From positions 1-32,071 of the forward strand of contig CALLUQ010000024.1 of assembly GCA_938010565.1 (NCBI GenBank): a DNA stretch of 32,071 bases. Reading direction: 5' to 3'. Made by a program: the position numbers and the translations under genes. This document shows, one piece after another, positions 1,177 to 19,324 of this stretch (within the stretch, counting starts at the first letter, position 1; each line of letters opens with the position of its first letter). The DNA comes from an uncultured Flavobacteriales bacterium (GTDB lineage: Bacteria; Bacteroidota; Bacteroidia; Flavobacteriales_D; CALLUQ01). A model generated the notes under the pieces. It was not told the origin of the DNA and ran no database searches. It saw only the letters and a program-made list of their open reading frames with translations.

Positions 1177-1326
1177 AATATCAGTATGTAAAAATAATTT
1201 TTTATTCAAAAACATCCTTTTTCACGGAAAGTTTAGAATAAATTTTCTAACTTGTAGCAACAAACTAACCTGACAATACCATTCTTTTTGAAAACAAGAC
1301 TTCTTTCGAATCTTGCCATATCCGAT

Positions 1327-2145
1327 ATGGCATCCATTTGTTACATCATTCTGGATAGCTTGAGATGGGACAGTTTTGAGTTGGCACAGACCAAAAACCT
1401 GGATCGCCTCACCACTTTTCAAAGCAAACGGTTCTCTTATGCCTCCTGGACCCAGCCCAGCCACTCCTGCCTGCTGTCGGGGCTTTTGCCTTACGAATCG
1501 GAACCGGGGGTTGTGGCCGCAAAAACCTATGTGAACGATATTCAGTTCTGGAATACCGCCCTGGGAGGCGATACCGAAGCCTTGCAAACCCTGGCTCCCG
1601 AATATGCTCTGGCTTTATCGGCCCAACGTTTGGGATGGAACACCATTGGCCGGGTTTCGATGCCGGTACTCAACCCGCAAACCGCTTTCAGTCGCGGGTT
1701 TAATTCGTATGAATTATCGCCAAACGGAAGCTCTTTGGGTGCGCAGATCGAATCCGTTACCTTTGATCTGAAACCCGCCAAAAATTTTGTGTTCATCAAT
1801 GCCGGCGATACCCACTACCCTTATTTGATGCCGGCCAATAAAATGCCCCGAATTTCGGGCATTCATGGCGCTGCATCCACCCAAAAAACCGACCACAACC
1901 GTGCCGAATATGCCATTCCTTTCAGCAAAGATGAACTCAAAACACTTCACGAAAGTCAGATCTTAGGACTGGAACGCGCAGACAAACACATCGAACAACT
2001 GCTCGACCTGATGCCAAAACCATTGTTGTTGGTCGTAGGGTCGGATCACGGCGAATTGTTCGGAGAAGACAATTACTTCGGGCATGGCCCCTTCTTTCAC
2101 AAAACATTGTTTGAAGTACCACTTACCATCGGAATCGTTCATTAA
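1327..2145 (+). CDS. Sulfatase-fold (alkaline phosphatase superfamily) hydrolase/transferase with Thr nucleophile
   Basis: This 272-residue protein has the metal-site strand YIILDSLRWD (Asp10), the nucleophile loop WTQPSHSCLLSG (41-52) and a C-terminal metal site SDHGELFG (Asp240, His241) followed by GHG (His253). This is the PF00884 sulfatase-like layout. The position that carries the formylglycine Cys or Ser in true sulfatases is Thr42, and the following Arg is His46. Formylglycine sulfatase activity is therefore unlikely; a phosphatase, phosphodiesterase or phosphotransferase is more plausible. No signal peptide is seen, so it probably acts in the cytosol. A TTG at 1288 would add 13 residues; the ATG at 1327 fits the family better. 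It is the first gene of the operon, ending 15 bp before the PLP fusion gene. Confidence 0.8.
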   Translation: MASICYIILDSLRWDSFELAQTKNLDRLTTFQSKRFSYASWTQPSHSCLLSGLLPYESEPGVVAAKTYVNDIQFWNTALGGDTEALQTLAPEYALALSAQRLGWNTIGRVSMPVLNPQTAFSRGFNSYELSPNGSSLGAQIESVTFDLKPAKNFVFINAGDTHYPYLMPANKMPRISGIHGAASTQKTDHNRAEYAIPFSKDELKTLHESQILGLERADKHIEQLLDLMPKPLLLVVGSDHGELFGEDNYFGHGPFFHKTLFEVPLTIGIVH

Positions 2146-2160
2146 CCTACCCACCAGCCT

Positions 2161-4710
2161 ATGCTTCAAAAGCAGACATTATCGGCAGATATTGCCTACG
2201 TTTACGGGCAAATAAAAGCTGCACACAACCGGATCAAAGACCGGATCATCGAAACAGAGATCATCCGGCTTCCCTGGCTGGATGCCCCCAACCGCAAGGT
2301 GTGGGCCAAACTGGAATGCCGACAAATTTCGGGTTCGTTTAAGATCAGGGGAGCTTTTAATACCTTTCTTCAAACTCCGGCTTCGGATCACGTCATCACC
2401 TATTCGGCAGGCAACCACGGATTGGCCATGGCAATGGTAGCACAACAACTGGAACGCCAGTGCACCATTTATGTGCCTTCCAACGTTTCGGAACTCAAAC
2501 TCCGGAAGCTGCTCAGTTTGGGAGCCCATGTGGAAACCGTTGGCAGCGATCTGTATGAAAGTTCTTTGTTTGCAAAAGAAAAAGCTGCTGTTACAGGGGC
2601 ACATTTTGTTACCCCGCATTCTACCCCCGATATTGTTTACGGACAAGGAACCATCGGAGCAGAAATTGCAGCTGCCGCAAATCGTATGGATTCGCTCGTT
2701 ATTCCTTTGGGCGGCGGCGGATTGATGTGCGGGATCGGGACGTATATGAAACATGCTTTTCCCGATCATAAGCTCTTTGCTCCTTACCCCGAGATCTTTG
2801 GCCGCAACCTCCGGCAAGGCAACCTGCATCGGGAACTTTGCCGCAAAGTCATTCCGACGGTTGCCGATGGCTTATCGGTACAGGTAGAAGAGAACTGCTG
2901 GACGGTTCCTTTGCTTGAAAGCATGATCGAAAGCCACCAGGCCATCAGCGAAAAGCTCATCAATACAGCCATTTACGCCCTGTTGAGAAACGAAAGCATT
3001 CTGGCGGAAGGCGGAGGGGCCATTGGAGTTGCCATGCTGATGGACGATCCGAGCGGAGAACGCATTTCCGGCGATACGCTGGTGGTGATCAGCGGCGGGA
3101 ACATTGCTCCGGGAGCCGTTTCCAAAGTGATGGCCACCAGCATTTACGACCACCGTTTCCGAAAATTACTGGGGTTGCGTGCCATAAAGATTCAGGGAGA
3201 AATGCCTGTAAAAGCAGAGGGAGAAACAACGGCAATACAACCCCAAAAAGCCCCTGACCTTCAACCCCTTTCCACTCCTTCCGAATCCCTATGGGTAAGC
3301 CTTTTGAAACAACTGGGCCTGAAACTGAAAGCGCTTGAAGACGAAGTAGCCACTTATGTCCGCTTTTTGAACCACAACCAACTGCAATACGATGCCGAAA
3401 GCATTAAAAACGTACGGCACGATATGGCCGCCTGCATCTTCACTGTTGAACAACTCACCACCCATTCGTGGCAAAAAAACGAAGACTGGCTGATCCGCTC
3501 CCGGTACCGGGAACTTCTTCAGAAATATGCGTACCTCGCCAATGTGTTTGAATGGACCAGCCCCAGCTACGATCAAAGCCAGGTGGTGATGTTCTTTAAC
3601 CCCTCCGAACAATCGAGCAACATGGTGAATTACGACCGTTACGGTTCAATTGTACTCCGGAAATTTGAACTGTCGTTGCTGGAAACCCTCGGGTTTGATA
3701 CCCATTTGAATACCATGATCGCAACATCGAGCGGCCAGGCGGCATACCAGGTTATCGAATCGTTTTTATTGCGGGAGGTGTTTGATAAAGAAGACCTTTT
3801 TGTATATTCCGAATACATTTACTTTGAAGGCTTTGAGCAATTGAGTTTGTTGCCGTTCCTGGAAGCGATCAAATGCGAAGGGCATTCGCATGAAGACCTG
3901 ATCGAAGTGGTGGAAAAAAACAACGCCAAAGTGGTTTTTGCAGACCCGATGTGCAACATGAAAGGCCTGCCGGTTTTTGACTTTGCTGCCCTGAGTCAAT
4001 CGCTCCGGGGCCGCAATTGGTCGGAAAAATGGCTCGTAATTGACGGGACGATGGTTTCCGGAGGTTTTAACCCTTTCAGTCTCTTTAACCGGCCTGAACA
4101 TCCGCACATTATCTATTACGAAAGCGCGAGTAAATACCTGCAGTTTGGTTTGGATCTGCAAATGGCAGGAATTTGCATTTGTGAGAAAAAAATCGCTCCT
4201 GCCCTTTCTCGTTACCGCAGAAATTCCGGTTCCACGATGTACAGATCAGGCGTAAACCGATTTCCGGTTTTTACCCGCGATCTGTTTTTGCGCCGCATGC
4301 AGCTGATCTCACAAAATGCAGAACACATTGCGCGGGCATTAAAAGATGCCTTTTCGGCAGAAGAGCAGATCAAAGTTGGGTTTCCCTTCCAATGGTCGCA
4401 GTTGCAATGGCGCCACCCCGGTGCAGTACTGAACATCGAATTCATCGACGAAGGCCTTAACAACAGAGACCAGTTGAACATGCTGGTTGAAATTGTGATC
4501 AACAAAGCACAACAAGCCGGCGTTTCTGTTTCAAAAGGCGTTAGTTTTGGATTTTCGACCACCCGCATTTCGGCTGCTTCGGCCATGGCAGAAAATACCG
4601 ATCCTTTTTTCCGCCTGTCGGTCGGAGAAGAAAATGAAGAAGAATTGAACAAACTCACCAACGTACTCATCAACAGTGTCGACGAGTATCTCAATCTGTA
4701 TCAAGCATGA
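2161..4710 (+). CDS. Bifunctional PLP enzyme: fold-type II (threonine dehydratase-like) fused to fold-type I (cystathionine gamma-synthase-like)
   Basis: Residues 1 to about 330 match fold-type II PLP enzymes of the threonine dehydratase/serine racemase group. They contain ISGSFKIRGAF with the Schiff-base Lys61, SAGNHGLAMA for the phosphate/substrate loop, and the glycine-rich loop GGGGLMCGIG. A linker and helical segment (about 340-480) follows. Residues from about 481 to the end match fold-type I enzymes of the Cys/Met-metabolism type: SSGQAAYQV (523-531), VIDGTMVSGG for the cofactor Asp region, and YYESASKYLQFG with Lys658 as the second Schiff-base lysine. Both lysines are present, so both sites may be active. 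The two folds are unrelated, which makes a single-chain fusion unusual. The frame is continuous over 849 codons, and the stop overlaps the next start by 4 bp (ATGA). The substrates cannot be deduced. A relay from a hydroxy-amino acid such as Ser or Thr through an enamine or beta-replacement product is an inference. Confidence 0.85.
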   Translation: MLQKQTLSADIAYVYGQIKAAHNRIKDRIIETEIIRLPWLDAPNRKVWAKLECRQISGSFKIRGAFNTFLQTPASDHVITYSAGNHGLAMAMVAQQLERQCTIYVPSNVSELKLRKLLSLGAHVETVGSDLYESSLFAKEKAAVTGAHFVTPHSTPDIVYGQGTIGAEIAAAANRMDSLVIPLGGGGLMCGIGTYMKHAFPDHKLFAPYPEIFGRNLRQGNLHRELCRKVIPTVADGLSVQVEENCWTVPLLESMIESHQAISEKLINTAIYALLRNESILAEGGGAIGVAMLMDDPSGERISGDTLVVISGGNIAPGAVSKVMATSIYDHRFRKLLGLRAIKIQGEMPVKAEGETTAIQPQKAPDLQPLSTPSESLWVSLLKQLGLKLKALEDEVATYVRFLNHNQLQYDAESIKNVRHDMAACIFTVEQLTTHSWQKNEDWLIRSRYRELLQKYAYLANVFEWTSPSYDQSQVVMFFNPSEQSSNMVNYDRYGSIVLRKFELSLLETLGFDTHLNTMIATSSGQAAYQVIESFLLREVFDKEDLFVYSEYIYFEGFEQLSLLPFLEAIKCEGHSHEDLIEVVEKNNAKVVFADPMCNMKGLPVFDFAALSQSLRGRNWSEKWLVIDGTMVSGGFNPFSLFNRPEHPHIIYYESASKYLQFGLDLQMAGICICEKKIAPALSRYRRNSGSTMYRSGVNRFPVFTRDLFLRRMQLISQNAEHIARALKDAFSAEEQIKVGFPFQWSQLQWRHPGAVLNIEFIDEGLNNRDQLNMLVEIVINKAQQAGVSVSKGVSFGFSTTRISAASAMAENTDPFFRLSVGEENEEELNKLTNVLINSVDEYLNLYQA

Positions 4711-6203
4711 AAAAAACATTGGTTTGGGGATTAGACGGGGTTTCCGTTAAACTCTTTAAAGGGTATACGGAAGCACACCCCGGTGGGCTCTTTGAGAAAA
4801 TTTTTCAGGATGGGATCGTGAGGGAACTCACTTCTACCATGCCTTATTTTACAGCTCCCGCATGGACCACTTTTGCAACCGGATTACAACCGGGAATACA
4901 TGGCAATTTCCATTGGCGGGCACGTTATTCGAAAAAAGAAGGCAACCGCCCGTTGGTTTCGTCGCGCCATTTACAGGAGGCTACCTTCTGGTCTTATTTT
5001 CAACACTTCGGAGGTGCTGTAAGTGTTACCAATTTTCCGATGGAATACCCCGCTCCTCCGGTAAACGGACGGTACATTTGCGGAACCCTGGCACCCGAAA
5101 ACGCGGAAGAAGTATCCTGGCCCAAAGCCATGATGCAACACATAAAAACAAAATACCCGGAATACCGTTTCGAAATGAACAAAGGGCTGAGTTATATGGA
5201 CCGGCCCAAAGAATTGTGGGACCACATTTATCAGGTAGGCAAACACCACCTGGATGCCATGATGGAATACGGCAACCCGTTTAAAGCAGATCTGCTGGTC
5301 CATATTGTTACCATTACCGATCGTGCGGAACATTTTTTCTGGAACCTTTACGACGAAACACATCCCGATTACGACCCTGCTTTAAAAGCAGCCATAGGCA
5401 ACCCTGTTTTTGATACCATGAAACTGGCCGAGGATTACCTCGACAAACTGTGGCAAAGCAACCGCTGGGACAACCTCATCGTTGTAAGCGACCACGGCAT
5501 GGATGCTTCCAAAACCTCTTTTCACACCGACAACTGGCTCCTGGAAAAAGGCTACCTCAAAGCGGACAGCAACCGCCGGGTTTTAATGGAAGAAAGCATG
5601 GCCTATTCGGGAGAAGAGCCCGAATGCTCGGTGTATGTGAACCGCAAAGACCGCGATGCATGTGGATTGGAAACATCGGAATACGATGCCTTCATTCAAA
5701 AACTGAGAACCGAACTACTGGCCGTTCGCAACCCTGCTAACCGCCAGCTTGTTTTTGCGGATGTTCTTTTTGGAAAAGACATTTATCACGGGCCTGCCGC
5801 TCACCTGGGGCCCGACCTCATTCTGCTGCCTTCCGAAGGGGTACACCCCAGAAACGGATTAACCACCCCCGATATTCACGGAACGGCTACACGTTTGTAT
5901 GCCAACCACCGGCCCGATGGCATTTTTATGGGATATGGAAAAGACATACGGCCTTCGGCACGTTCCGAACAAAATGCAGCCCTGCATATTCAAGACATGT
6001 TCCCTTTGCTTTGTTTGTTGTGCGATTTGCCGATCCCCGCAGATCTGTCCGGATCCATTCCCGAAAATGTTGGCCAATACATCGATCTTGTTGCAAAAGA
6101 AGATCCGGAGTGGGATTGGCCGTCTCAGGTAAAGGGATTGCCTACTTTTCAGGATTTTAATCCTCAGATCATTGAACGTTTATCTGAATTGGGGTACCTT
6201 TAA
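4707..6203 (+). CDS. Type I phosphodiesterase/nucleotide pyrophosphatase-like hydrolase (alkaline phosphatase superfamily)
   Basis: The 498-residue product begins with the metal-site motif TLVWGLDGVS (Asp10) and has the nucleophile loop FTAPAWTTFATG (48-59) with Thr49 as likely nucleophile. ITDRAEHFFW, VVSDHGMD and a following HTDNW supply the remaining zinc ligands in the order expected for the nucleotide pyrophosphatase/phosphodiesterase branch. There is no signal peptide, so it is probably cytosolic. Its ATG overlaps the stop of the PLP fusion gene, indicating translational coupling. It is the second alkaline-phosphatase-superfamily enzyme of the operon and differs clearly in length and motif from the first, so the two are not a recent duplication. 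The likely reaction is phosphate- or phosphodiester-bond hydrolysis or transfer on a pathway intermediate; the substrate is unknown. Confidence 0.8.
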   Translation: MKKTLVWGLDGVSVKLFKGYTEAHPGGLFEKIFQDGIVRELTSTMPYFTAPAWTTFATGLQPGIHGNFHWRARYSKKEGNRPLVSSRHLQEATFWSYFQHFGGAVSVTNFPMEYPAPPVNGRYICGTLAPENAEEVSWPKAMMQHIKTKYPEYRFEMNKGLSYMDRPKELWDHIYQVGKHHLDAMMEYGNPFKADLLVHIVTITDRAEHFFWNLYDETHPDYDPALKAAIGNPVFDTMKLAEDYLDKLWQSNRWDNLIVVSDHGMDASKTSFHTDNWLLEKGYLKADSNRRVLMEESMAYSGEEPECSVYVNRKDRDACGLETSEYDAFIQKLRTELLAVRNPANRQLVFADVLFGKDIYHGPAAHLGPDLILLPSEGVHPRNGLTTPDIHGTATRLYANHRPDGIFMGYGKDIRPSARSEQNAALHIQDMFPLLCLLCDLPIPADLSGSIPENVGQYIDLVAKEDPEWDWPSQVKGLPTFQDFNPQIIERLSELGYL

Positions 6204-6217
6204 AATAAGGAAAAACA

Positions 6218-7465
6218 ATGGCTCTGCTGGGAAAAAAAATAGGAACGACAATACAACGCCGTCAGGATTGGCAAACCGTTCAGGCTGCTGCTCCTGCTCC
6301 TTTGCAAGCTCATCATATTTCCGGAAAAGAATGCCGGGCACACCCCTATGCCGCGCTGGCCCTGCGCACCTATATTCTGTTAAAAACCTACCGCAACGAT
6401 TACCATACGGATGTGTTCGATCTCGATCGGCTGGCAGAAGGGATCCGCAAGGAAGAGGAACGCATTTTTTTTTGGGGCGACCCGGAAGCGGTGGCCATAG
6501 GGCGCCGGTTTTTAACAACCAATCACCGCACGGTTCCGGATGCTATGCCCGAGATCCAGTTGGGAACAGCCACCATTTTAAATACCTCACTTCCCGAAGA
6601 GAACAGCATTGCGGAGCTTACCCGTACCGGCAGTATTTCCCAACAAATTCCTTCTGTTCATTCCAACATTGAAGAACTGGAATCCCTCTTTCGGACATCG
6701 GGCTATCAGGTCATTTTTTCAACCCCGCGCAACCGAACTTCCACACCCGAAATCAGGGGCGGAGCAGCCATACAAAGGCAACATGTACGCGCCTTAAACT
6801 CGGCCTTTTGGGGATGGGCACCGTGGTACATCATGCAAGGCGGCTTTTTGGAAATATTGGATTACCGGGAATTGTACCGCGAACCGGAAAACATTGCACA
6901 ACAGTTGCGTGTACTTCCCGGGCTGTTTGTACACCACAAAACGGAAGCAAAGTTCATTGCCGATCTTTTTGCTTTGAACCTCGGTTTTTCCCCTCCTGTT
7001 TCCAATACCGCTGAAGGAGAAACCACCGGACACCTGCAAAAAGGGTGGCGCATCGGGAATGTTGCCTCTGCGGATCTAATGGCCTTTAACCCGGTTTTTC
7101 TTTGCGAAGATGAAACAGGAGAAAAAGGAACCTTTGAAAAAGCGATCACACACCTTGAAAGGATGCCCGGTGCCTGCCATCTGGTGGAGTTGAATGTGTG
7201 CGACTCCAAAAACATCCGGTTTCAAAAAATATTGCAGCAACGTGCTTTTTACCTGGTTTGTGTGCGCGTACACGTTGCAAAAAACAAGAAAATAAAATTG
7301 ATCGGAGCATGGGCCAAACAAAAGAAAACCACGCCTGTGGCTCCGCCTTATTATTTGAACATGCAAGGGTTTTCCGAAGTTGAGAACAGGTTGCTAGGTT
7401 ATCTGCGCAACCTGATGAAAGTCTTCCGGCCAAAGGCCACATGCTCCGAAACCAATCCGCAATAA
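6218..7465 (+). CDS. Unrecognised protein of the biosynthetic operon (415 aa)
   Basis: I do not recognise this 415-residue protein. It starts at ATG 6218 with an AAGG ribosome-binding-like sequence 8 bases upstream, 14 bp after the phosphodiesterase gene. It has no signal peptide and no obvious membrane segment. Notable patches are HPYAALALRTYILLKTYRND (about 42-61), an aromatic stretch FWGWAPWYIMQGG near the middle, HHKTEAKFIADLFALNLGF, and a C-terminal part (HLVELNVCDSKNIRFQKIL) that faintly recalls the end of a GNAT acyltransferase fold; that resemblance is weak. Directly upstream of the carrier protein and the AMP ligase, it could be the missing acyl- or aminoacyl-transferring enzyme of the pathway, which is an inference from position only. 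Confidence 0.75.
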   Translation: MALLGKKIGTTIQRRQDWQTVQAAAPAPLQAHHISGKECRAHPYAALALRTYILLKTYRNDYHTDVFDLDRLAEGIRKEEERIFFWGDPEAVAIGRRFLTTNHRTVPDAMPEIQLGTATILNTSLPEENSIAELTRTGSISQQIPSVHSNIEELESLFRTSGYQVIFSTPRNRTSTPEIRGGAAIQRQHVRALNSAFWGWAPWYIMQGGFLEILDYRELYREPENIAQQLRVLPGLFVHHKTEAKFIADLFALNLGFSPPVSNTAEGETTGHLQKGWRIGNVASADLMAFNPVFLCEDETGEKGTFEKAITHLERMPGACHLVELNVCDSKNIRFQKILQQRAFYLVCVRVHVAKNKKIKLIGAWAKQKKTTPVAPPYYLNMQGFSEVENRLLGYLRNLMKVFRPKATCSETNPQ

Positions 7466-7474
7466 GTTCCCTTT

Positions 7475-7759
7475 ATGATGAAAGAAAAAGACCACCGCAT
7501 ATCGCCTGTCATCACCACGGAAATGCTACTCGACGCCTTCCGGCAGGTGGTATCAAACAAAGAAAATACGGAAATTGAGATCGGGGCGATAAGCCCTGAA
7601 ACCACCCTGGAGGAGCTCCACCTCGACAGCCTCGAAATGGCCGAAGTACTCATTTTGCTAGAACAAAAAGTAAGCATGGAGCTCAATCCGTTCGGGAAAA
7701 TGCCGCTGGTAAAAATTAAGGATTTTGCCATGCTGGCTCAAGAAAAAAAGACGGGATAA
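7475..7759 (+). CDS. Acyl carrier protein
   Basis: This is a 94-residue acidic, helical protein with the phosphopantetheine attachment motif LHLDSLEMAE; Ser52 is the expected modified residue. The N-terminal extension before the four-helix bundle is slightly longer than in FabC/AcpP. Two consecutive ATG codons (7475 and 7478) could start it. It lies 3 bp before the adenylating enzyme, so the pair is very probably a dedicated ligase and carrier. Being far from any fatty-acid synthesis genes, it is a specialised rather than housekeeping carrier. It would need a 4'-phosphopantetheinyl transferase encoded elsewhere. Confidence 0.9.
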   Translation: MMKEKDHRISPVITTEMLLDAFRQVVSNKENTEIEIGAISPETTLEELHLDSLEMAEVLILLEQKVSMELNPFGKMPLVKIKDFAMLAQEKKTG

Positions 7760-7762
7760 GCC

Positions 7763-8998
7763 ATGTTATATTCCTTGCTGCAAAACCGCAAAAGCACCGG
7801 CTCGGTCTCCAATTTCAGGCAGGAATTGTCGTGGGAAGAATTTGCGCGGCAAACCGATCGGTTTGCCACCTTTCTGGACCAACCGGGCTGGAACAGTTTT
7901 GGCCTTACTTTCGAATGTGAATTGGCTGCGCTGGCTTGTTGCATTGCCCTCAACAAGCTTCGGAAAACATGCCTTTTTGTGCCTTCCGATCACTCCCTTG
8001 TCACTCCCTGTGATGTACAGGTGCATGCCCTTCCTTCTTTCAGGCTGGAGATCGAAGAAAATGAAAACAAAAAAGCAGGATACGAAACCGATGCGCTGGT
8101 GCTCTACTCTTCGGGCACTACAGGTACTCCCGTAGCCAAAAACCGGTTGTGGGCAACGCTTACCGACAACAACCATGTGCCCGGTTTTCAGCCGGACACG
8201 CATTGGATCTCTGCATATCCGCTTGATGCATTTGCAGGTATTCAGGCCGCCATTTACGGATTGGCAGCAGCCGAACATTTGTATTTCATCCCACCCAACC
8301 AATACCTGCCATCTTTTAAAGCCGATGCCCCTGTTTTTGATTTGGTGATGGCTACGCCCACCTTTTGGAGAAGAAACTTACTGCATCCGGACCTGAACAT
8401 TCGGGTCCGTTCCCTTTCGCTGGGTGGAGAAACCGTACCACAAGTGCTGATCGACCTCCTGAAAGAACGATTGAAGGTTGAAAAAATAACCCATATTTAC
8501 GCTACCACGGAGTTGGGGTCTCTTTTTAGTGTTTCGGACGAACGGGAAGGATTTCCCAAAAGCTGGCTGGGAAACCGGCTGTCCAACGGAACTCAACTGG
8601 AAGCCATCGGGGAGGAGCTCTGGGTGACCGTTTCCGGAACGCAGGAGGCACAAAACACCGGAGATCTGATCGAAATTCGTGGGGATCGGGTGTGCTTTAC
8701 AGGGCGCAAGGAATCGATCATCAATGTGGGCGGACGTAAGGTATCTGCACATCGGGTCGAAACCGCTTTGCTTTCGATGGATGCCATTGCGGATGCCCGT
8801 GTGCAAGGAGCCCGAAACCCCATTATGGGCCAAATTGTTGTGGCAGATATCATCCCCCGCAAAGGGGCCGATGAGTCCCAAATAAGGGCCGACATCATCA
8901 CCCGATTTAAAAAACACCACCGGCCTGAGGAGCGGCCCATGCGCATCCGGTTTGTAGAAGAATTTGAATTGACCAGAACGGGTAAAAAGAAAATATAA
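7763..8998 (+). CDS. Short acyl/aminoacyl-AMP ligase (ANL superfamily), probable carrier-protein loader
   Basis: The 411-residue product carries the ANL adenylation motifs in order. The phosphate loop is YSSGTTGTP (115-123), lacking the usual Lys-Gly directly after the Pro and continuing VAK instead. The A5 motif is YATTELGSLFS. The A7/A8 hinge is TGDLIEIRGDRVCFTGRKES followed by INVGGRKVSAHRVE. The C-terminal LTRTGKKKI holds the catalytic lysine. At 411 residues it is markedly shorter than the usual 500-550, the loss being in the N-terminal subdomain. The expected reaction is ATP-dependent activation of a carboxylic or amino acid and transfer to the phosphopantetheine thiol of the preceding carrier protein. 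Substrate preference cannot be read by eye. Confidence 0.85.
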   Translation: MLYSLLQNRKSTGSVSNFRQELSWEEFARQTDRFATFLDQPGWNSFGLTFECELAALACCIALNKLRKTCLFVPSDHSLVTPCDVQVHALPSFRLEIEENENKKAGYETDALVLYSSGTTGTPVAKNRLWATLTDNNHVPGFQPDTHWISAYPLDAFAGIQAAIYGLAAAEHLYFIPPNQYLPSFKADAPVFDLVMATPTFWRRNLLHPDLNIRVRSLSLGGETVPQVLIDLLKERLKVEKITHIYATTELGSLFSVSDEREGFPKSWLGNRLSNGTQLEAIGEELWVTVSGTQEAQNTGDLIEIRGDRVCFTGRKESIINVGGRKVSAHRVETALLSMDAIADARVQGARNPIMGQIVVADIIPRKGADESQIRADIITRFKKHHRPEERPMRIRFVEEFELTRTGKKKI

Positions 8999-9001
8999 CA
9001 C

Positions 9002-9721
9002 ATGAAATACATCGTAGTTACCGGAGCATCAAAAGGGCTTGGACTGGCCATAACCGAGGCCTTGCTGGCACATGATTACGGGGTAATTGCCTTGTCGCGG
9101 AGCAAAACCGATGCGGTGGTTGAACTGGAAAAAAAATTTGATGATCGGTTCGAATGGATGCAGGTGGACCTTCAGAATACGGATGCACTGTACAGCCGGG
9201 CCGGAACGATACTGCACCGATATCCTGTTTATGGGCTGATCAACAACGCAGGCTATGTGCACGATCAGTTAGTGGTAATGAACAACCAGGAGGAGATCGA
9301 CAAAATGATCCGGATCAATTTTTCCGCTCCCATTGCTTTGAGCCGCTTGTTTGCCAAGCACTTTTTGATCCAACGGGAGGGCCGGATCATTCAGATGGGT
9401 TCCATTGCTGCTTTCAGGGCTTTTAAAGGCATGGCGGTTTATGCTGCCACAAAAGCAGGGTTGTCCGCTTTTTCAAAAGGACTTGCACAAGAAATTGGTT
9501 CGCGAAACATCACGGTGAACAACATTACACCCGGCTTTATTCCCACGTCCATCAATGCGCATGTTCCGGATCATCGCATGGATCACATTCGCAGGCGCAC
9601 CGCTCTGAAACGTTTGGCAGCGGCGGAAGATGTAGCAGAAGCCGTGCTTTTTTTGCTTTCCGATAAAGGCAAAAACATGACCGGGATGGATTGGGTAATT
9701 GATGCAGGGCAAAGTTTATAA
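9002..9721 (+). CDS. Short-chain dehydrogenase/reductase (FabG-like)
   Basis: This is a 239-residue classical SDR. The nucleotide loop is TGASKGLG (7-14), NNAG lies at 81-84, and the catalytic residues are Asn106, Ser134, Tyr147 and Lys151 within YAATKAG. Ser32-Arg33 after the second strand suggests NADP(H) preference. The C-terminus (NMTGMDWVIDAGQSL) matches FabG-type 3-oxoacyl reductases. It starts 3 bp after the ligase stop. In this operon it may reduce a carrier-bound or free ketone or oxidise an alcohol. No ketosynthase is encoded nearby, so a standard beta-ketoacyl elongation role is not supported. Confidence 0.9.
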   Translation: MKYIVVTGASKGLGLAITEALLAHDYGVIALSRSKTDAVVELEKKFDDRFEWMQVDLQNTDALYSRAGTILHRYPVYGLINNAGYVHDQLVVMNNQEEIDKMIRINFSAPIALSRLFAKHFLIQREGRIIQMGSIAAFRAFKGMAVYAATKAGLSAFSKGLAQEIGSRNITVNNITPGFIPTSINAHVPDHRMDHIRRRTALKRLAAAEDVAEAVLFLLSDKGKNMTGMDWVIDAGQSL

Positions 9722-9733
9722 AAGCCAAAAAGC

Positions 9734-10501
9734 ATGAAACAAAAGGTATTTTATGTAGGCGGTCCGCCCCGCTCCGGAACCACCTTTATCAGCGATTGGA
9801 TCACTCAGGCTCCGGAGGCGTATTGTGCCCATGAAATTTCTGCACGGATCTCGAACAAAAAAGACGAAGAGGTGGTGCAATTGTTGCTCGGATATGCCGC
9901 TTCGGGCAACGACCGCTACGGCAAACGCAAACAACGCGAGTTTTTGGACTGGGAAAACATCCCCGTTAAAAAAGCACCCGAGCAACTTGGATTCAAACAA
10001 CCTGTTGTTTGGCAAAACCCTGCGGATTGTCCTGCTGTGGCAGATCGGTTCATCGATCGCATGAAAGGAAAACGGATCCTGATCTTTCGCCATCCTATCG
10101 ATATGATCGCTTCTGCAAAACACCGCGAAAAAACCACCGCCAATTGGCCGGGTTATTCGGTGAAAGAGCTGTGTGCTTTTTGGAAATGTGCCTTTGAACA
10201 CACTCAAAATTGGGCAAAAGACCCGGATCGTTTGCACGTTGTACAATGGGAACGGTTGTTGTTGGATCACGATGCCGAGAAGGCTTTGCTCGAACGTTTT
10301 CTTTCGCTTAAGTTACCGCAGTTTGCCGGATACGAAAACAGTTCCGAATACTTCAAAATACTTCAGCGCACCACCTCTTTCGAACAAGGCGTTACGGGCA
10401 ATAAAAAACGAGAACTACTTTCGCCCCAGGAAGTGAAACAGATCAATCAACTGCTGGAAGCCTATCCTTCTTTTGGTTACAAAGCTACTGCCATCGCATG
10501 A
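9734..10501 (+). CDS. PAPS-dependent sulfotransferase
   Basis: The 255-residue product has the two PAPS-binding elements of soluble sulfotransferases. The 5'-phosphosulfate loop is GGPPRSGTTF (9-18) near the N-terminus, and the 3'-phosphate motif is FRHPIDMIAS (118-127). The C-terminal half keeps the WERLL and FLSLKLP segments common in this family. It would transfer sulfate from PAPS to a hydroxyl or amino group of an acceptor in the cytosol. Its stop overlaps the next gene's start by 4 bp. CysC, CysD and CysN, which make PAPS, are encoded later in the window. The acceptor is unknown. Confidence 0.88.
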   Translation: MKQKVFYVGGPPRSGTTFISDWITQAPEAYCAHEISARISNKKDEEVVQLLLGYAASGNDRYGKRKQREFLDWENIPVKKAPEQLGFKQPVVWQNPADCPAVADRFIDRMKGKRILIFRHPIDMIASAKHREKTTANWPGYSVKELCAFWKCAFEHTQNWAKDPDRLHVVQWERLLLDHDAEKALLERFLSLKLPQFAGYENSSEYFKILQRTTSFEQGVTGNKKRELLSPQEVKQINQLLEAYPSFGYKATAIA

Positions 10502-11355
10502 CCGTTTACTTTGCCATACTGACCTACAACAGAAGCAAAAGCCTGCTGCAATTGCTGGAGACCATTTTTAAACAAAGCCTGCCTCCGGGGGGTCGTTTTC
10601 AGGTGGTGATATGGGACAATTGTTCCGATGAAACGCATGTGCAGGCCTTCCGGAACTCTCGTTTCGGGGAGGTCGATCATGTTCGCTATATCATTGGAAA
10701 AGAAAACGCTTTTATGGTAGGAAAGCGCCATCTGGAAGATGCTGTTTTGGATTTGGGGCCCGATCCGAAAAACGACTATCTCGTTCATCTGGATGATGAT
10801 GTACAGCTTTCCGAAAGCTGGTTATCGCATGTGTTTCGGTGCATGGAACAACTCCGGCTGGATGCTTGCGGCTCGGTAGAAACCTGGAAAGGGCAACTGA
10901 TCTACAGCGGCCAGACCCACCTGCATACCACCGCAAAAACCGGAGATCTTTATCCTTTGAAAGTATGGAAATGGCAGTGGCAGGAAGTTCCGGCCAATGC
11001 ATCCGTTGCCGGAGCGGAAGTGGCTTTTGCCGGCCATCGGGCACTTTTGGTAAAGATGGCTGTTGCCGTACAGGTAAAGCACGACCCGCAAATGTTGATA
11101 GGCGGAGAAGATCTGGACTACAGCCTGGCCCTAAAAGCGGCCGGATTTCGCATAGGCATTGCCCACCAGGCACTGATATATCATCGCTTACTAAAAGAAG
11201 AAGACGCACACAACTTCCGGTCGCCCGATAAGATCCTCCATTCGTGGAAACACTTTCACCAAAAATGGGGGTTTGTGCGAAACAACGTCGACCGGGAACT
11301 TCAAATCGTACGTGAAGCATGGCTTAAAACCGCTGCAGAATGGTGCGGAAAGTAG
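10498..11355 (+). CDS. Family 2-like glycosyltransferase (GT-A fold)
   Basis: The 285-residue product starts with VYFAILTYNRSKSLLQLLET, the first strand and helix of GT2 enzymes. A metal-binding DxD-type motif (HLDDDVQL, Asp99-Asp101) and a catalytic-base region GGEDLDYSLALKAAGFRIG follow. No membrane segment is seen, so it is a soluble or peripheral transferase using a nucleotide-sugar donor. The start overlaps the sulfotransferase stop (ATGA). It is the last gene of the operon, followed by a weak terminator-like hairpin. It probably adds a sugar to the pathway product. Confidence 0.88.
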   Translation: MTVYFAILTYNRSKSLLQLLETIFKQSLPPGGRFQVVIWDNCSDETHVQAFRNSRFGEVDHVRYIIGKENAFMVGKRHLEDAVLDLGPDPKNDYLVHLDDDVQLSESWLSHVFRCMEQLRLDACGSVETWKGQLIYSGQTHLHTTAKTGDLYPLKVWKWQWQEVPANASVAGAEVAFAGHRALLVKMAVAVQVKHDPQMLIGGEDLDYSLALKAAGFRIGIAHQALIYHRLLKEEDAHNFRSPDKILHSWKHFHQKWGFVRNNVDRELQIVREAWLKTAAEWCGK

Positions 11356-11533: not shown

Positions 11534-11551
11534 ACAATACTTCGCTAAAAA
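11534..11551. repeat. Left terminal inverted repeat of the insertion sequence
   Basis: The sequence is ACAATACTTCGCTAAAAA. It is identical to the reverse complement of the right end, and the match stops at the next base. Confidence 0.9.
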
Positions 11552-11553
11552 CT

Positions 11554-12795
11554 CTATGCTGCAATCTTCCCAAATCTTAGAAACTTGTTGAAGATGTATT
11601 TATTTTTGAGAAGTTTGGTGTTTACCCCGAACATTTTAATAAATCGATCCAGCATCATTTGGTTATTAAACAATGTTTTAACATCACTCATTGAAAAGGC
11701 TACTTCCTCTTTGGTGTTACTATCTTTTTTGGGTATCCAATACACTATCTTAGCCACATTGATGGCAGTGAGTGCCATATTCCAATGAAAGTCTAATTTA
11801 TTTTTACTTCTAGCCTGACAATCATTTAATCCTGTAAATTGTTTGGCATCTCTGTACAAGAATTCAATTTGAAATCTCAAACGATACATTTTCAGTATCT
11901 GCTGCCAATGTTGAGTCAAATCGGTACTAAAGTAAATTTTGTGAGACAGGATTCCCTTCTTAATTGTTGTATAGACAATTACGGTATTAATTGTTCTTTT
12001 CAAGGTTTTATGCCTTGCTTTTAACCAGTAAATTTTCTCACCGTCAACCTCTGATACTAATGTAGCGTGTTTTACCTCTAGATTTTGATAATTCACCTTA
12101 CCGTCAAACTTCTTTTTTCTTCCTTTGCCCTTTGATTGTTCTCCTGTAAAAAGATACTGCATATTGGCATCATCTCTGAGCCTTGAAACCACATGAAAAC
12201 CTGCCATTGTCATAGGGTTTATAAAAGTAATTTTGGAAAAATAAGCATCTGCCACCCAATACTTTGACAGGGCTAATAATTGTGCTTTTTGTTCCAAAAG
12301 TTTACGGACATAAAAACTGATTAAGGTTTCATTGTCTTTCAATTCCACTGTTTGAAAGCTTGTCAGGTGAAAGGCTGTTTTTCTTAACAAATCCAAAGCA
12401 GCCACCCCACAAAGTTCCAACCCCCACTTTGTAGCACCTGCACAACCACTCCAAAAATAACCTACTCCAGGAGTTTTCTTTCCTGATTTAGAAATGTAGC
12501 TTGGATCAAAAGCTATGGCGGTTGCACCTTTTAAGTGTGTGCTTAGGAGTACCTTGTTAAAAGATAGAAAATCGAAAGATTGTTCAAAGAAGTATCGAAA
12601 ACGCTGTTCACATTTTTCTGAAAAACGTGCTAATTGTAAGAAATTGATTTTTCCTCTGATGCTTAAAAATAAAATGAGAATGTTACAGAAACTGTTAGGA
12701 ATTCTGCGATCTATTTTTTCTTCGATTTGTGCAAATGTGGAAAAAACAATACCTTTCAGTTCGAATAACTCTTGATTTTTGGCATTATGGATCAT
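11554..12795 (-). CDS. IS4-type DDE transposase
   Basis: The 413-residue protein carries the DDE triad in the IS4 arrangement. The first Asp is in AIAFDPSYISKSGKK, the second in YWVADAYFSK, and the Glu is in a perfect YREK signature (YRLRFQIEFLYRDAKQF; Y-2-R-3-E-6-K). The length is normal for the family and there is no internal stop or frameshift, so it may be active. It starts at ATG 12795 and ends three bases inside the left terminal repeat. It cuts and pastes the surrounding element by binding the 18-bp ends. Confidence 0.92.
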   Translation of the reverse strand: MIHNAKNQELFELKGIVFSTFAQIEEKIDRRIPNSFCNILILFLSIRGKINFLQLARFSEKCEQRFRYFFEQSFDFLSFNKVLLSTHLKGATAIAFDPSYISKSGKKTPGVGYFWSGCAGATKWGLELCGVAALDLLRKTAFHLTSFQTVELKDNETLISFYVRKLLEQKAQLLALSKYWVADAYFSKITFINPMTMAGFHVVSRLRDDANMQYLFTGEQSKGKGRKKKFDGKVNYQNLEVKHATLVSEVDGEKIYWLKARHKTLKRTINTVIVYTTIKKGILSHKIYFSTDLTQHWQQILKMYRLRFQIEFLYRDAKQFTGLNDCQARSKNKLDFHWNMALTAINVAKIVYWIPKKDSNTKEEVAFSMSDVKTLFNNQMMLDRFIKMFGVNTKLLKNKYIFNKFLRFGKIAA

Positions 12796-12873
12796 ACATA
12801 AAGATACTGAAAACCAAATAGTTATTCAACTCTTTAGTCGCCTATTTTTTTGAAATTCAGCCAATTAAAGAAC

Positions 12874-12891
12874 TTTTTAGCGAAGTATTGT
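12874..12891. repeat. Right terminal inverted repeat of the insertion sequence
   Basis: The sequence is TTTTTAGCGAAGTATTGT, the exact reverse complement of the left end. A near copy of this end stands alone at 30857-30873. Confidence 0.9.
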
Positions 12892-14189: not shown

Positions 14190-17100
14190 ATGACACTTGA
14201 AGCACTCAGAAACTGCTATAACAACGTAGCAGACATTCATATTTTATCGGAAAAATTAAACGCTGCCGGTCAGCGCATTCACATACGCGGAGGAGTAGGC
14301 TCTGTGAATGCCTTTATTGCCAGTGCCGTTTTACGACGGACCTCCGGCACCCATCTTTTTTTATTGAATGATAAAGAAGAAGCCGCCTACTTTCAGAATG
14401 ATCTTGAAAATCTGAATGAAAAAGAGTTGCGGGTGCTTTTCTTCCCATCGGCCTACCGCCGGGCTTACCAGATCGAAGAAACGGATAATTCCAACGTGGT
14501 ACTGCGTGCCGAAGTACTCAACGAGATCAACCGGCGTACCAAACGGACCATTATTGTTTCATACGGTGCCGCTTTACATGAAAAAGTAGTTACCCGTAAA
14601 GAACTCGCCAAAAACACCCTTGAAGTGAAAGTGGGAGAATCGTATACAATCGATTTCCTCAATGAACTGTTAATTGAACTGGAGTTCCACAAAACGGACT
14701 ATGTATATGAACCCGGGCAGTTTTCGGTACGGGGTGGCATTGTCGATATTTTTTCTTTTTCCAACCGGGAACCTTTCCGGATAGAATTTTTTGGTGATGA
14801 TGTAGAGAGCATCCGAACATTTGACCCCATCAGCCAGCTTTCAACCAAACCATTGAAAAAGTGTTCGGTAGTACCCAACCTGCAAACCGGCATGCAGGAA
14901 GAAAAACGCCAGACTTTTCTGGAGTACCTCTCCAAAGACACCGTAGTCTGGATAAAAGATGTTCGCCTGATCGCTCATCAACTGGAAAAAGAATTTGATC
15001 TGGCCGAACGGGTTTACGAAAAACTCGACTCGCCGCTCCACCACCTCAAACCGGACCAAGCATATAATTCTCCCCAAAATTTTAAACGGAATATCGAGTC
15101 GTTTTCTGTGGTGGAATTTGGCCAGCACTTTCATTTTCAACCTACTTTTGAGTTGCCTCTGAGGGTAGTCCCTCAACCGGTGTTCAACAAGAATTTTGAC
15201 CTGCTTGCGGAAGACTTACAGGCCAAAATGAAAGAACAGTATCTCACAGTAATCGCAGCAGCAAACCCCAAACAGGTAGAACGCCTGTACCGCATTTTTG
15301 AAGACAAGGAAGTCCGCGTAGATTTTAAACCCATTGTACTGGGCATCCAACAAGGCTTCATCGACCGGGAACAGAAATTGGCCGTATACACCGATCACCA
15401 GATCTTTGAGCGTTACCACCGTTTCCGGATGAAGGAAGGGTTTAAGAAAACCAAAGAGGCCATTACGCTGAAAGAAGTGCTTCATCTGCAAAAAGGCGAT
15501 TTTGTGGTACACATCGACCATGGTGTGGGCCGTTTTTCGGGGTTGGAAGCCTTGGATGTGAATGGCAAAAAGCAGGAAGCCATCCGGCTCGTGTATAAGA
15601 ACAACGACATTTTGTATGTCAGCATTCATGCTTTGCACCGCATTTCGCGCTATACCGGCAAAGACGGTACCGAACCCACCCTCCACAAAATTGGCGGATC
15701 GGCCTGGCAAACCGCTAAAAGGAAAACCCAGACGCGAATTAAAGAGCTGGCTTTTAACCTCATTCGTTTATATGCCCGGAGAAAAGCCAAAAAAGGTTTT
15801 GCCTATTCTCCCGATACTTACCTCCAGCATGAACTGGAAGCTTCTTTTATTTACGAAGACACCCCGGATCAACTTAAGGCCACACAGGCCGTTAAAAAGG
15901 ACATGGAATCGGAGGCTCCCATGGACCGCCTGATCTGTGGCGATGTAGGCTTCGGAAAAACGGAAATTGCCATCCGTGCTGCTTTTAAAGCAGTAGCCGA
16001 TAGCAAACAGGTTGCGGTTTTAGTTCCTACTACCATCCTCTCGCTTCAGCATTACAAAACCTTCAACGAACGTCTGAAAGACATGCCGTGTTCGGTGGCT
16101 TACATCAACCGCTTTGTTTCCAGAGCCAAGGTAAAGGAAATTCTGAAACGTTTGCAAGAAGGCCGGATCGATATTCTGGTGGGTACCCATCGGATTGTAG
16201 GCAAGGATGTCCGTTTTAAAGACTTGGGGTTGCTCGTGATTGATGAGGAACAAAAGTTTGGTGTTTCCATCAAAGACAAACTCAAAACCTTCAAAGTGAA
16301 TGTAGATACACTCACTTTATCGGCTACACCCATTCCGAGAACACTGCAATTCAGTATGATGGGAGCCAGAGATCTATCGGTTATCAATACGGCTCCTCCC
16401 AACCGTTATCCTGTGCAAACTTCCCTTATTACACTGAACGAAGCATCCATTCGCGATGCCATTATGTACGAAGTGAGTCGGGGAGGGCAGGCATTTTTTG
16501 TGCATAACCGCGTACAAAACATCCAGGAAGTGGCCGGAATGATCCAACGGTTGTGTCCGGATATTCGTTTGGCGATCGGCCATGGCCAAATGGAAGGCAA
16601 AAAGCTGGAAGAAGTGATGATCGATTTTATGGATGGCCTTTACGATGTATTACTGGCCACTACCATCATCGAATCCGGCATCGATGTTCCCAATGCCAAT
16701 ACAATGATCATCAACCATGCACAAAACTTTGGTTTGAGTGATCTGCACCAATTGCGTGGCCGTGTAGGCCGTTCGAATAAAAAAGCATTCTGTTACTTGA
16801 TTGCACCGCCATCGGCCGCACAAACCGAAGAAGCCCGCAAACGCCTGAATGCCATCATACAATTCTCGGAACTCGGAAGCGGTTTTAACATTGCAATGCG
16901 CGATCTGGATATTCGCGGAGCAGGAGACCTGCTTGGAGCCGACCAAAGCGGTTTCATCGGCGATATCGGATTTGAAACGTACAAACGCATTCTGGATGAA
17001 ACATTACAAGACCTGAAAAAGAATGACTTTAAGGAGTTGTTTAAGGACGAAACCGATACCGGTTATATAAAAGATTTTCAACTCGAAACCGATTTGGAGC

Positions 17101-17540
17101 TGCGCATTCCGGAAGACTATGTAAACCAAATTGCCGAACGCCTCCACCTCTATAAAACCATGAATGAGGTAGCCGATGAAAAAGAACTGCTCCTTTTTGG
17201 TGAAATGCTTCTGGATCGGTTTGGTCCGCTTCCGCCACAGGTAGAAGACCTTTTGAAAACCAAACGGCTCAGATGGCTTTGTACGGATGTTGGTTTCGAA
17301 AAGGTGGTACTGAAAAACAATAAAATGATCGCCTATTTTGTAAGCGACCAAGAGTCGTCTTATTACCAAAGCAACAAGTTCACAGCCATTCTGGGTTTTA
17401 TCAAAAAATTCCCCGATCATGGACAGATGTCGGAAAAAAATGGCAAATTACGCTTTGTTTTTCCCGATATCAAAACCATAGACCGGGCCATAAAGATCGT
17501 ATCAAAAATGCAGCTGCAACCGATAAAAGCAGAAACGTAA
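14190..17540 (+). CDS. mfd: Transcription-repair coupling factor
   Basis: The 1116-residue product has the full Mfd order. A UvrB-like N-terminal module (FSVRGGIVDIFSF) comes first. The CarD-type RNA-polymerase-interaction domain (about 433-510, GDFVVHIDHGVGRFSGLEAL) follows. The superfamily 2 translocase comes next, with Walker A GDVGFGKTE (584-592), DEEQ (about 685) and SATPIPRTLQ, then the second helicase lobe (HQLRGRVGRS), and the C-terminal TRCF domain. It removes stalled RNA polymerase from DNA lesions and recruits UvrA. An upstream ATG at 14148 would overlap fbp by 20 bp and add 14 atypical residues; MTLEALRN at 14190 resembles family starts. Confidence 0.95.
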   Translation: MTLEALRNCYNNVADIHILSEKLNAAGQRIHIRGGVGSVNAFIASAVLRRTSGTHLFLLNDKEEAAYFQNDLENLNEKELRVLFFPSAYRRAYQIEETDNSNVVLRAEVLNEINRRTKRTIIVSYGAALHEKVVTRKELAKNTLEVKVGESYTIDFLNELLIELEFHKTDYVYEPGQFSVRGGIVDIFSFSNREPFRIEFFGDDVESIRTFDPISQLSTKPLKKCSVVPNLQTGMQEEKRQTFLEYLSKDTVVWIKDVRLIAHQLEKEFDLAERVYEKLDSPLHHLKPDQAYNSPQNFKRNIESFSVVEFGQHFHFQPTFELPLRVVPQPVFNKNFDLLAEDLQAKMKEQYLTVIAAANPKQVERLYRIFEDKEVRVDFKPIVLGIQQGFIDREQKLAVYTDHQIFERYHRFRMKEGFKKTKEAITLKEVLHLQKGDFVVHIDHGVGRFSGLEALDVNGKKQEAIRLVYKNNDILYVSIHALHRISRYTGKDGTEPTLHKIGGSAWQTAKRKTQTRIKELAFNLIRLYARRKAKKGFAYSPDTYLQHELEASFIYEDTPDQLKATQAVKKDMESEAPMDRLICGDVGFGKTEIAIRAAFKAVADSKQVAVLVPTTILSLQHYKTFNERLKDMPCSVAYINRFVSRAKVKEILKRLQEGRIDILVGTHRIVGKDVRFKDLGLLVIDEEQKFGVSIKDKLKTFKVNVDTLTLSATPIPRTLQFSMMGARDLSVINTAPPNRYPVQTSLITLNEASIRDAIMYEVSRGGQAFFVHNRVQNIQEVAGMIQRLCPDIRLAIGHGQMEGKKLEEVMIDFMDGLYDVLLATTIIESGIDVPNANTMIINHAQNFGLSDLHQLRGRVGRSNKKAFCYLIAPPSAAQTEEARKRLNAIIQFSELGSGFNIAMRDLDIRGAGDLLGADQSGFIGDIGFETYKRILDETLQDLKKNDFKELFKDETDTGYIKDFQLETDLELRIPEDYVNQIAERLHLYKTMNEVADEKELLLFGEMLLDRFGPLPPQVEDLLKTKRLRWLCTDVGFEKVVLKNNKMIAYFVSDQESSYYQSNKFTAILGFIKKFPDHGQMSEKNGKLRFVFPDIKTIDRAIKIVSKMQLQPIKAET

Positions 17541-17733
17541 CCTTTACGGCTCTCAGAGGTTTTAAGAACGTTCCATCCGGCGCCTGCTTTTCATGGCAAC
17601 GCCGGCGGTTTTAATTCCTGCAAGGGCACAAACGGAACAGGGAAAAGTCCAAAACCTGTTCGCAACCTCCCCGTCCGTCATCGTTAGAATTTAGAAAAAG
17701 GCCATACAGATACCATTTGTAAAATTCCGACCA

Positions 17734-17859
17734 TCATTTTTTTATATCCGTATCCAGAGCATCACTCCACGGCACTGTCAGCACCCCTTTACTCGAATCT
17801 TTTTTGACCAATTCTGCAACCTTTTGCAAACCTGTCGCGTAAAGGCTGACACAACTCCT
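17734..17859 (-). other. Possible orphan C-terminal coding fragment in the mfd downstream spacer
   Basis: The spacer 17541-18061 holds no full gene. On the minus strand one frame is open from 17859 to a TGA at 17734, giving 41 residues without a start codon (SLYATGLQKVAELVKKDSSK and then VLTVPWSDALDTDIKK). The composition looks protein-like rather than random, with an amphipathic helix and a charged end, and could be the 3' remnant of a lost gene. I cannot identify a family, and chance is possible. Nothing else is seen at 17541-17733. Confidence 0.25.
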
Positions 17860-17885
17860 CTACTTTTAGTTTACAAACTATTCAT

Positions 17886-17934
17886 AACAAAAAATGCATG
17901 CCATCCATACTACAGATAGCATGCATTTTTTGTT
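17886..17934. terminator. Bidirectional intrinsic terminator between convergent genes
   Basis: AACAAAAAATGCATGC (17886-17901) and its exact reverse complement (17919-17934) form a 16-bp perfect stem with a 17-nt loop. Each strand ends in a T run, so it can stop transcription both from mfd (plus) and from the permease gene (minus). Confidence 0.75.
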
Positions 17935-18061
17935 CACGGTTTCCAGGCCCGTTTCCCAACATCAAAACACGAAAATTAAGGTACGGCAAAAACATGCCAT
18001 ACGATGAACCGAACATCTCCGGAAAAAGTATCGGGAGGCCCCTTTTGAGGCCTTTTAGGGT

Positions 18062-19324
18062 TCAGACATTGGTCCGGATGGCTTCTACCGGATCAAGCTT
18101 TGCCGCTCTGAGCGCCGGAAATATTCCGGACACGATGCCCACCGCTGTGGTTAACATCAACCCCAGCATTATATTGCCGGAGGTGAGTACAAAATCCATC
18201 CCAACGGCCACACGTAACAAGGCCATAAGCCCCCAAACCAGCAATAAGCCAAGAATACCGCCCATAATGCTCAAAATGATGGCTTCCGAAAAAAACTGGA
18301 TCAAAATGAAACTGTTTTTTGCACCGAGCGATTTCCGGATCCCGATCATAGGAGTGCGTTCGCGGACGGTTACAAACATGATGTTTGCAATACTGAATGC
18401 ACCAACAACCATGGCAAAGATCCCGATGATAAATCCGATCCACTCCATGCGGTTAAAAAAAGTGTTGAAATTCTGGGTGATGAAAGCCGATTCGTTGATG
18501 GCAAAGTTGTCTTCCTCGGTAGGCCGTAACCTCCGGATAGACCGCATGCGCCCTTTCACCATATTTTTCAACCGATCGTTGGAAAAACCCTCTGCTGCAT
18601 TTATCATAATGGAGGGATCCAGGCTCCGGAGATTGAACACATTCCGGCCATAACTAACGGGCATTGCGACATTGTTATCGAGGGAGGAACCCGGTATAAA
18701 ACCGCCCTCTTTGGCAAATACTCCGATCACCTTTACTTTGCGGCCGTTCACTTTGATGCTTTTCTGCAAAGGGTTGCGGCTACCAAAAAGAGAAGTGGCC
18801 AGATCGGCCCCGATAATGGCTACGTTTTTGCCTCTCTGTGATTCGGTTTCCGTAAAATACCTGCCGGATCCTATTTGCACGGATCGGGTACGGTAAAAAT
18901 CGTGCGAAACCAATAACACCGCCACATTTTTACCGCTGCTGTTAAAAAAACCGTCCGAATATTCCACCGTAGTACTGGCACTGGCCATAAAAGCCATTTT
19001 TGCCGGAATATTTCCCACTGCCTGCAATGCTTCAAAATCTTTGATGGTTATTTTGGGGTAGCGCATGTATTTCCACCAACGGTATTTGCCATCTGCTTCT
19101 GCTTCCCATGGGCTTTGTTGAATATAGAACTGATCTTCGCCCAGTGTACTTACGCTGTTGCGGATCGAAATTTCAAGGGAGCTTACCGCAGTAAGTACGC
19201 CAATAATAGCCAGAATGCCGATGGTAATGCTTAACAAAGTAAGGAAACTGCGCAAAGGATTTGCTACCACAGATTGAAAAGCGAAAACCACACTTTCCCC
19301 AAAAACACGCAAATAGAGTTTCAA
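18062..19324 (-). CDS. ABC transporter permease, MacB/FtsX type
   Basis: The 421-residue product has a first membrane helix (SFLTLLSITIGILAIIGVLT), a large periplasmic MacB-type core domain with the GRYFTETESQRGKNVAIIGA segment, and three C-terminal helices separated by the FtsX-type cytoplasmic loop (RERTPMIGIRKSLGAKNSFI). It ends with the usual FPALRAAKLDPVEAIR motif. It would work with a separate ATPase in export or lipoprotein/antimicrobial transport; no ATPase gene is in the window. The start is uncertain because no ATG precedes the first helix. TTG 19324 (MKLYLRVFGES) is chosen; TTG 19429 would add 35 residues from AT-rich sequence that looks intergenic. Confidence 0.88.
   Translation of the reverse strand: MKLYLRVFGESVVFAFQSVVANPLRSFLTLLSITIGILAIIGVLTAVSSLEISIRNSVSTLGEDQFYIQQSPWEAEADGKYRWWKYMRYPKITIKDFEALQAVGNIPAKMAFMASASTTVEYSDGFFNSSGKNVAVLLVSHDFYRTRSVQIGSGRYFTETESQRGKNVAIIGADLATSLFGSRNPLQKSIKVNGRKVKVIGVFAKEGGFIPGSSLDNNVAMPVSYGRNVFNLRSLDPSIMINAAEGFSNDRLKNMVKGRMRSIRRLRPTEEDNFAINESAFITQNFNTFFNRMEWIGFIIGIFAMVVGAFSIANIMFVTVRERTPMIGIRKSLGAKNSFILIQFFSEAIILSIMGGILGLLLVWGLMALLRVAVGMDFVLTSGNIMLGLMLTTAVGIVSGIFPALRAAKLDPVEAIRTNV

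Follow-up and report, generated by a model that had tools for sequence, protein, structure and literature searches.

A single-chain fusion of a fold-type II and a fold-type I PLP enzyme in a Flavobacteriales bacterium and on Pseudomonas plasmids

In reverse transsulfuration, cystathionine beta-synthase (CBS) and cystathionine gamma-lyase (CGL) are separate enzymes that act in sequence, the first of fold type II and the second of fold type I. Two PLP domains can also lie in one chain, as in the nematode CBS, whose first PLP domain has been proposed to be non-catalytic (PMC9506716). The window analysed here, 32,071 nucleotides of DNA from an uncultured Flavobacteriales bacterium, contains a gene that joins a fold-type II and a fold-type I PLP enzyme in a single polypeptide. 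Neither PDB sequences nor the open-access literature yielded a characterised enzyme built in this way, in agreement with an earlier note on this DNA whose author knew of none with such a domain order. A two-step amino-acid-modifying fusion enzyme of this kind is apparently undescribed so far.

The fusion gene and its distribution

The fusion gene occupies positions 2161-4710 of the forward strand and runs uninterrupted for 849 codons from ATG to TGA. The Pfam search recovered both expected domains in this one frame: PALP (PF00291) at residues 27-311 with E 6.8e-54, and Cys_Met_Meta_PP (PF01053) at residues 467-829 with E 3.5e-9, covering profile positions 25-372 of 381. The threonine-dehydratase-type N-domain (residues ~14-330, positions 2200-3150) carries the Schiff-base Lys61 in the motif SGSFKIRG (codon 2341-2343). 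It is followed by a variable linker (residues 346-374, positions 3196-3282), by an N-terminal extension of the C-domain (residues 375-458, positions 3283-3534), and by the C-domain itself, of the cystathionine gamma-synthase (CGS) type (residues ~459-849, positions 3535-4707), with the Schiff-base Lys658 in the motif ESASKY (codon 4132-4134).

When plasmids were searched by tblastn, four records of Pseudomonas amygdali pv. aesculi each contained a homologue that spans 96% of the protein and is 43% identical to it. The P. amygdali fusion has 852 amino acids and the same domain order, and its annotation says no more than 'pyridoxal-phosphate dependent enzyme'. This homologue bears on the simplest objection, that two adjacent genes were joined by a sequencing or assembly error, which the earlier note had named as a possible refutation. 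The window is indeed one contig of a draft assembly of 211 contigs; against such an error, the frame is undisturbed and the full-length fusion occurs in all four plasmid records with matching order and overall length. Because an independent homologue has the same domain order and length, an artefact is excluded, its chance being practically negligible, and the fusion is a real protein.

Identity between the window and Pseudomonas fusions is 41% for the fold-II domain and 50% for the fold-I domain, but falls to 21% in the linker and to 20% in the N-terminal extension of the C-domain. This difference suggests a pattern of selection acting on both catalytic cores. In Pseudomonas the fusion gene overlaps a GNAT acetyltransferase gene by 4 bases, forming a two-gene cassette flanked by ISPsy4 and IS51. 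A further copy, on the P. syringae plasmid pPsy0479a (locus L055, positions 14974-18335), is split over several frames, and its pieces are 91-98% identical to the intact P. amygdali copy; the splitting reflects either sequencing errors or decay.

The fusion is rare in Bacteroidota. No second one was present in 395 phylum-wide and 199 order-wide genomes (about 590 in total), and the C-domain alone as query returned only the window from the phylum sample; the family of the source organism has no other searchable genome. The viral contigs scanned held no relatives, and the scan of genome contigs gave CBS-like proteins only, among the matches examined. Rhizobial matches (H26-H33) were weak, with 26-27% identity and unrelated gene neighbourhoods.

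Lineage and active-site residues of the two domains

The nearest solved chain to the N-domain in a PDB sequence search was TdcB (2gn0, E 3.4e-32). The closest NCBIfam models were likewise threonine/serine dehydratases, with E values down to 2e-55 compared with 1.6e-14 for cysteine synthase. The dehydratase scores were far under the equivalog cut-offs; the best, NF005292, gave 188 bits against a cut-off of 371. Lys61 falls in the alignment column of the PLP lysine in TdcB and serine racemases of solved structure. Both fusions contain the residues of a fold-II threonine/serine dehydratase, namely the Schiff-base Lys61, Asn85, the glycine-rich phosphate loop GGGG at 184-187, and Ser311-Gly-Gly-Asn, together with Glu283. 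In the alignment Lys61, Asn85, GGGG, and Glu283 are invariant also in 38 related dehydratases.

In a tree of N-domain relatives with 46 rows, the two fused N-domains formed one clade with support 100/99 on a long stem, apart from the other dehydratase relatives. This topology is consistent with a fusion that arose once and was then transferred. The alignment also revealed 24 residues common to both fusions and nearly absent from other relatives, including a cluster formed by F213-G-R-N-L217 and G220. Membership of the N-domain in the CBS, SbnA, or cysteine synthase groups was considered and rejected, as the NCBIfam scores and the tree place it elsewhere.

In human serine racemase Ser84, which precedes the GNHG motif, is the catalytic re-face base. 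The corresponding position, 83, is Ala in both fusions, as in TdcB, and Ser in the aligned serine racemases, so the N-domain does not qualify as a serine racemase. The earlier note had suggested substrate channelling, for example with elimination or racemisation in one domain and a beta- or gamma-replacement in the other. Because Ala83 occupies the position of Ser84, racemisation is disfavoured. Elimination followed by beta- or gamma-replacement or by a further elimination remains plausible.

The Pfam score of the C-domain, 36.2 bits (32.9 in the Pseudomonas fusion), exceeds the gathering threshold of 27, and a profile of seven family members compared by hhalign with canonical CGS/CGL gave a probability of 86% (E 4.9e-6). 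No PDB sequence matched it, either as a single sequence or as a two-sequence profile. Equivalog models for CGS, gamma-lyase, and beta-lyase were absent among the best 25 of 34 NCBIfam matches to the fusion, and a stand-alone relative of the C-domain reached 59.7 bits against an equivalog cut-off of 504.55. An AlphaFold model of the fusion, for which CBS proteins of Arthrobacter and of a relative served as homologues, had a mean pLDDT of 34 and no usable pocket.

We assigned the C-domain residues by alignment to the canonical cystathionine lyase/synthase of the host, in which Lys658 aligns with the CGS-family lysine of the motif SVTK. Tyr491, Arg493, Gly525, Tyr554, Asn599, and Asp628 match the canonical cofactor set, as do Thr630, Ser655, Lys658, Ser795, and Arg818. 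Hence the Tyr/Arg pair, the stacking Tyr, the Asp, the Lys, and the carboxylate-binding Arg of a fold-I PLP site are all present, with the roles known for the CGS family.

All cofactor residues checked in the two domains are identical in the Pseudomonas fusion, so that at the level of sequence both sites look intact, as the earlier note had judged, and a fusion with both of them apparently intact is kept across two phyla. This conservation bears on the possibility that only one domain is catalytic and that the other persists as a remnant with a structural or regulatory role. The nematode CBS provides a precedent, as tandem PLP domains of which one is proposed to be non-catalytic (PMC9506716). 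However, both Schiff-base lysines and the other checked cofactor residues are invariant although 57% of all positions differ between the two copies, and we regard a dead domain as rather improbable.

Gene neighbourhood and proposed function

The fusion is the second gene in an operon-like run of nine (positions 1288-11355), all in one direction on the forward strand and mostly tightly packed or overlapping. The first, at 1288-2145 and with an uncertain start, encodes a sulfatase-like hydrolase of the alkaline phosphatase superfamily, distantly STM4013-like. The ATG of the third (4707-6203) overlaps the stop of the fusion (ATGA), and its product is a second hydrolase of this superfamily, from the type I phosphodiesterase/nucleotide pyrophosphatase family (PF01663, E 1e-25). 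Then comes a 415-aa protein (6218-7465) of unassigned family; searches of 295 other Bacteroidota genomes and of plasmids returned no relative of it, and Pfam, PHROG, NCBIfam, and PDB gave no confident one. The following genes encode an acyl/peptidyl carrier protein with the phosphopantetheine motif LDSLE (7475-7759; PF00550, E 2e-4), a short adenylate-forming enzyme with YSSGTTGTP and a C-terminal TRTGKKK (7763-8998; PF00501/PF13193), a FabG-like SDR ketoreductase (9002-9721), a sulfotransferase (9734-10501; PF13469, E 1.1e-9), and, as the last gene of the run, a family 2 glycosyltransferase (10498-11355; PF00535, E 9e-10).

Upstream of the run, on the reverse strand, a single open frame at 1-876 combines the C-terminal part of an integrase with the start of what seems to be a different protein, a secreted one (MKYFTLFTLLISHQVFS...), which points to a remnant; the tyrosine-recombinase part, at 388-876, was recognised from motifs read by eye and is a probable assignment. 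The downstream border is an IS701/IS4-like element at 11534-12891 of the reverse strand, with perfect 18-bp terminal inverted repeats and no other copy in the assembled genome. Past it lie housekeeping genes, including those for fructose-1,6-bisphosphatase, an Mfd-like helicase, a PurH-like enzyme, MreB, MreC, and a penicillin-binding protein.

Five of 396 actinobacterial genomes encode a distant relative of the C-domain that stands alone; two more such loci were reached through relatives of one of these, giving seven. The stand-alone proteins too carry an N-terminal extension. SbnA is encoded nearby in three of the seven: in L079 (6269-11529) and L097 (4161-10329) together with SbnB and Mur-ligase genes, and in L080 (8281-14612) with a MurF-type ligase and a diaminopropionate-ammonia-lyase-like gene. 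The Mur ligases of these three clusters are of MurE and/or MurF type. Such clusters could make a diaminopropionate-type amino acid for a peptidoglycan-like or Mur-ligase-built product. Two other loci, L081 and L082, adjoin an apparent glucose-6-phosphate dehydrogenase gene and L098 an apparent transketolase gene, both assigned by eye. The separate fold-II enzyme beside members of the C-domain group gives modest independent support to the view that the two halves act together. The fusion of the domains, together with the co-occurrence of C-domain relatives and fold-II enzymes, points to two reactions that follow one another.

We consider the fusion to be probably (about 0.6) a bifunctional PLP enzyme whose chain holds two separate active sites and which helps to make a small specialised metabolite. 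The fusion, the intact cofactor residues of both domains, the conservation, and the gene context are observed; which two reactions take place, in what order and with what product, and whether there is channelling, we infer. The fold-II domain, of the threonine/serine dehydratase type, would remove the beta-substituent from an amino acid resembling Ser or Thr and yield an aminoacrylate-type intermediate. The CGS-type fold-I domain would then perform a beta- or gamma-elimination or replacement on this product or on its partner substrate, and the overall output would be a non-proteinogenic amino acid. The adjacent adenylating enzyme of the window organism would probably activate this amino acid, which would be loaded on the carrier protein before reduction, sulfation, and/or glycosylation; in Pseudomonas the GNAT may acetylate the product or the substrate of the fusion. 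The link to such a pathway in the window is drawn from a single genome, since the Pseudomonas fusion is accompanied only by GNAT and the other genes are not conserved. The great distance of the C-domain from any characterised member, as seen in the sequence comparisons, also weighs against this explanation. The host genome encodes a separate threonine dehydratase relative and a canonical cystathionine lyase/synthase, and thus the fusion would not be needed for housekeeping supply. Also in favour of the bifunctional reading are the cofactor residues kept in both domains of two distant homologues, the common clade of the fused N-domains, the close packing with genes for the carrier protein, the adenylating enzyme, and tailoring enzymes, the small GNAT cassette between IS elements in Pseudomonas, and the SbnA genes beside C-domain relatives.

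The main rival is that the chain both joins and cleaves, in a manner resembling reverse transsulfuration. The fold-II domain would then act like CBS or SbnA and attach a donor amino acid or thiol to the beta-carbon of a Ser/Thr derivative; the fold-I domain would cleave the conjugate like a cystathionine gamma- or beta-lyase, to give cysteine or a product similar to a 2,3-diamino acid. The domain order is that of CBS followed by CGL, and C-domain relatives lie beside SbnA in the three actinobacterial clusters, two of them also with SbnB of the diaminopropionate pathway. Yet the NCBIfam models and the tree assign the N-domain to the dehydratase lineage, not to that of CBS, CysK, or SbnA, and the host already possesses its own canonical cystathionine enzyme. 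We therefore hold this scheme to be unlikely, though less so than a dead domain.

A bolder and quite tentative reading is that the chain is a fold-II to fold-I relay, which would hand an unstable enamine or a conjugated amino acid between the sites to make an amino-acid building block, and which mobile elements would have spread between Bacteroidota and plant-associated Pseudomonas. The fusion would mark a two-step PLP reaction sequence for which we found no described pathway in the open-access literature; it offers a way towards the amino-acid metabolite concerned and a system in which direct transfer between unrelated PLP folds could be tested.

Comparison with known systems

The N-domain shares with the threonine/serine dehydratases TdcB and IlvA (PF00291) Lys61 and the motifs SAGNH, GGGGL, and SGGN, and resembles threonine dehydratase in having Ala where serine racemase has Ser84. 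It differs from TdcB and IlvA in forming its own clade on a long branch, in having no detected ACT domain, in its fusion to a second PLP enzyme, and in the fusion-specific motif FGRNL at 213-217.

The C-domain keeps YxR, SSGxA, Tyr554, Asp628, Lys658, and Arg818 of the CGS, or Cys/Met metabolism, family (PF01053). In contrast to that family, it is very divergent, with 18% identity to the canonical member of the host, and has an additional N-terminal segment of ~85 residues and a WxSxS motif, both in common with the uncharacterised stand-alone actinobacterial group.

Like the fusion, the nematode CBS has two PLP-enzyme domains per chain, but these are described as two PLP-dependent domains of one CBS enzyme and not as unrelated folds (PMC9506716). 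In the SbnA/SbnB pathway a fold-II PLP enzyme also adjoins the C-domain relative in some actinobacteria, although there the two are unfused and SbnA is of the cysteine synthase lineage. Finally, CBS and CGL correspond to the domain order of the fusion, fold II and then fold I, as separate proteins with a fold-II enzyme of the CBS lineage, whereas the fusion unites a fold-II domain of the dehydratase lineage with its fold-I partner in one chain.
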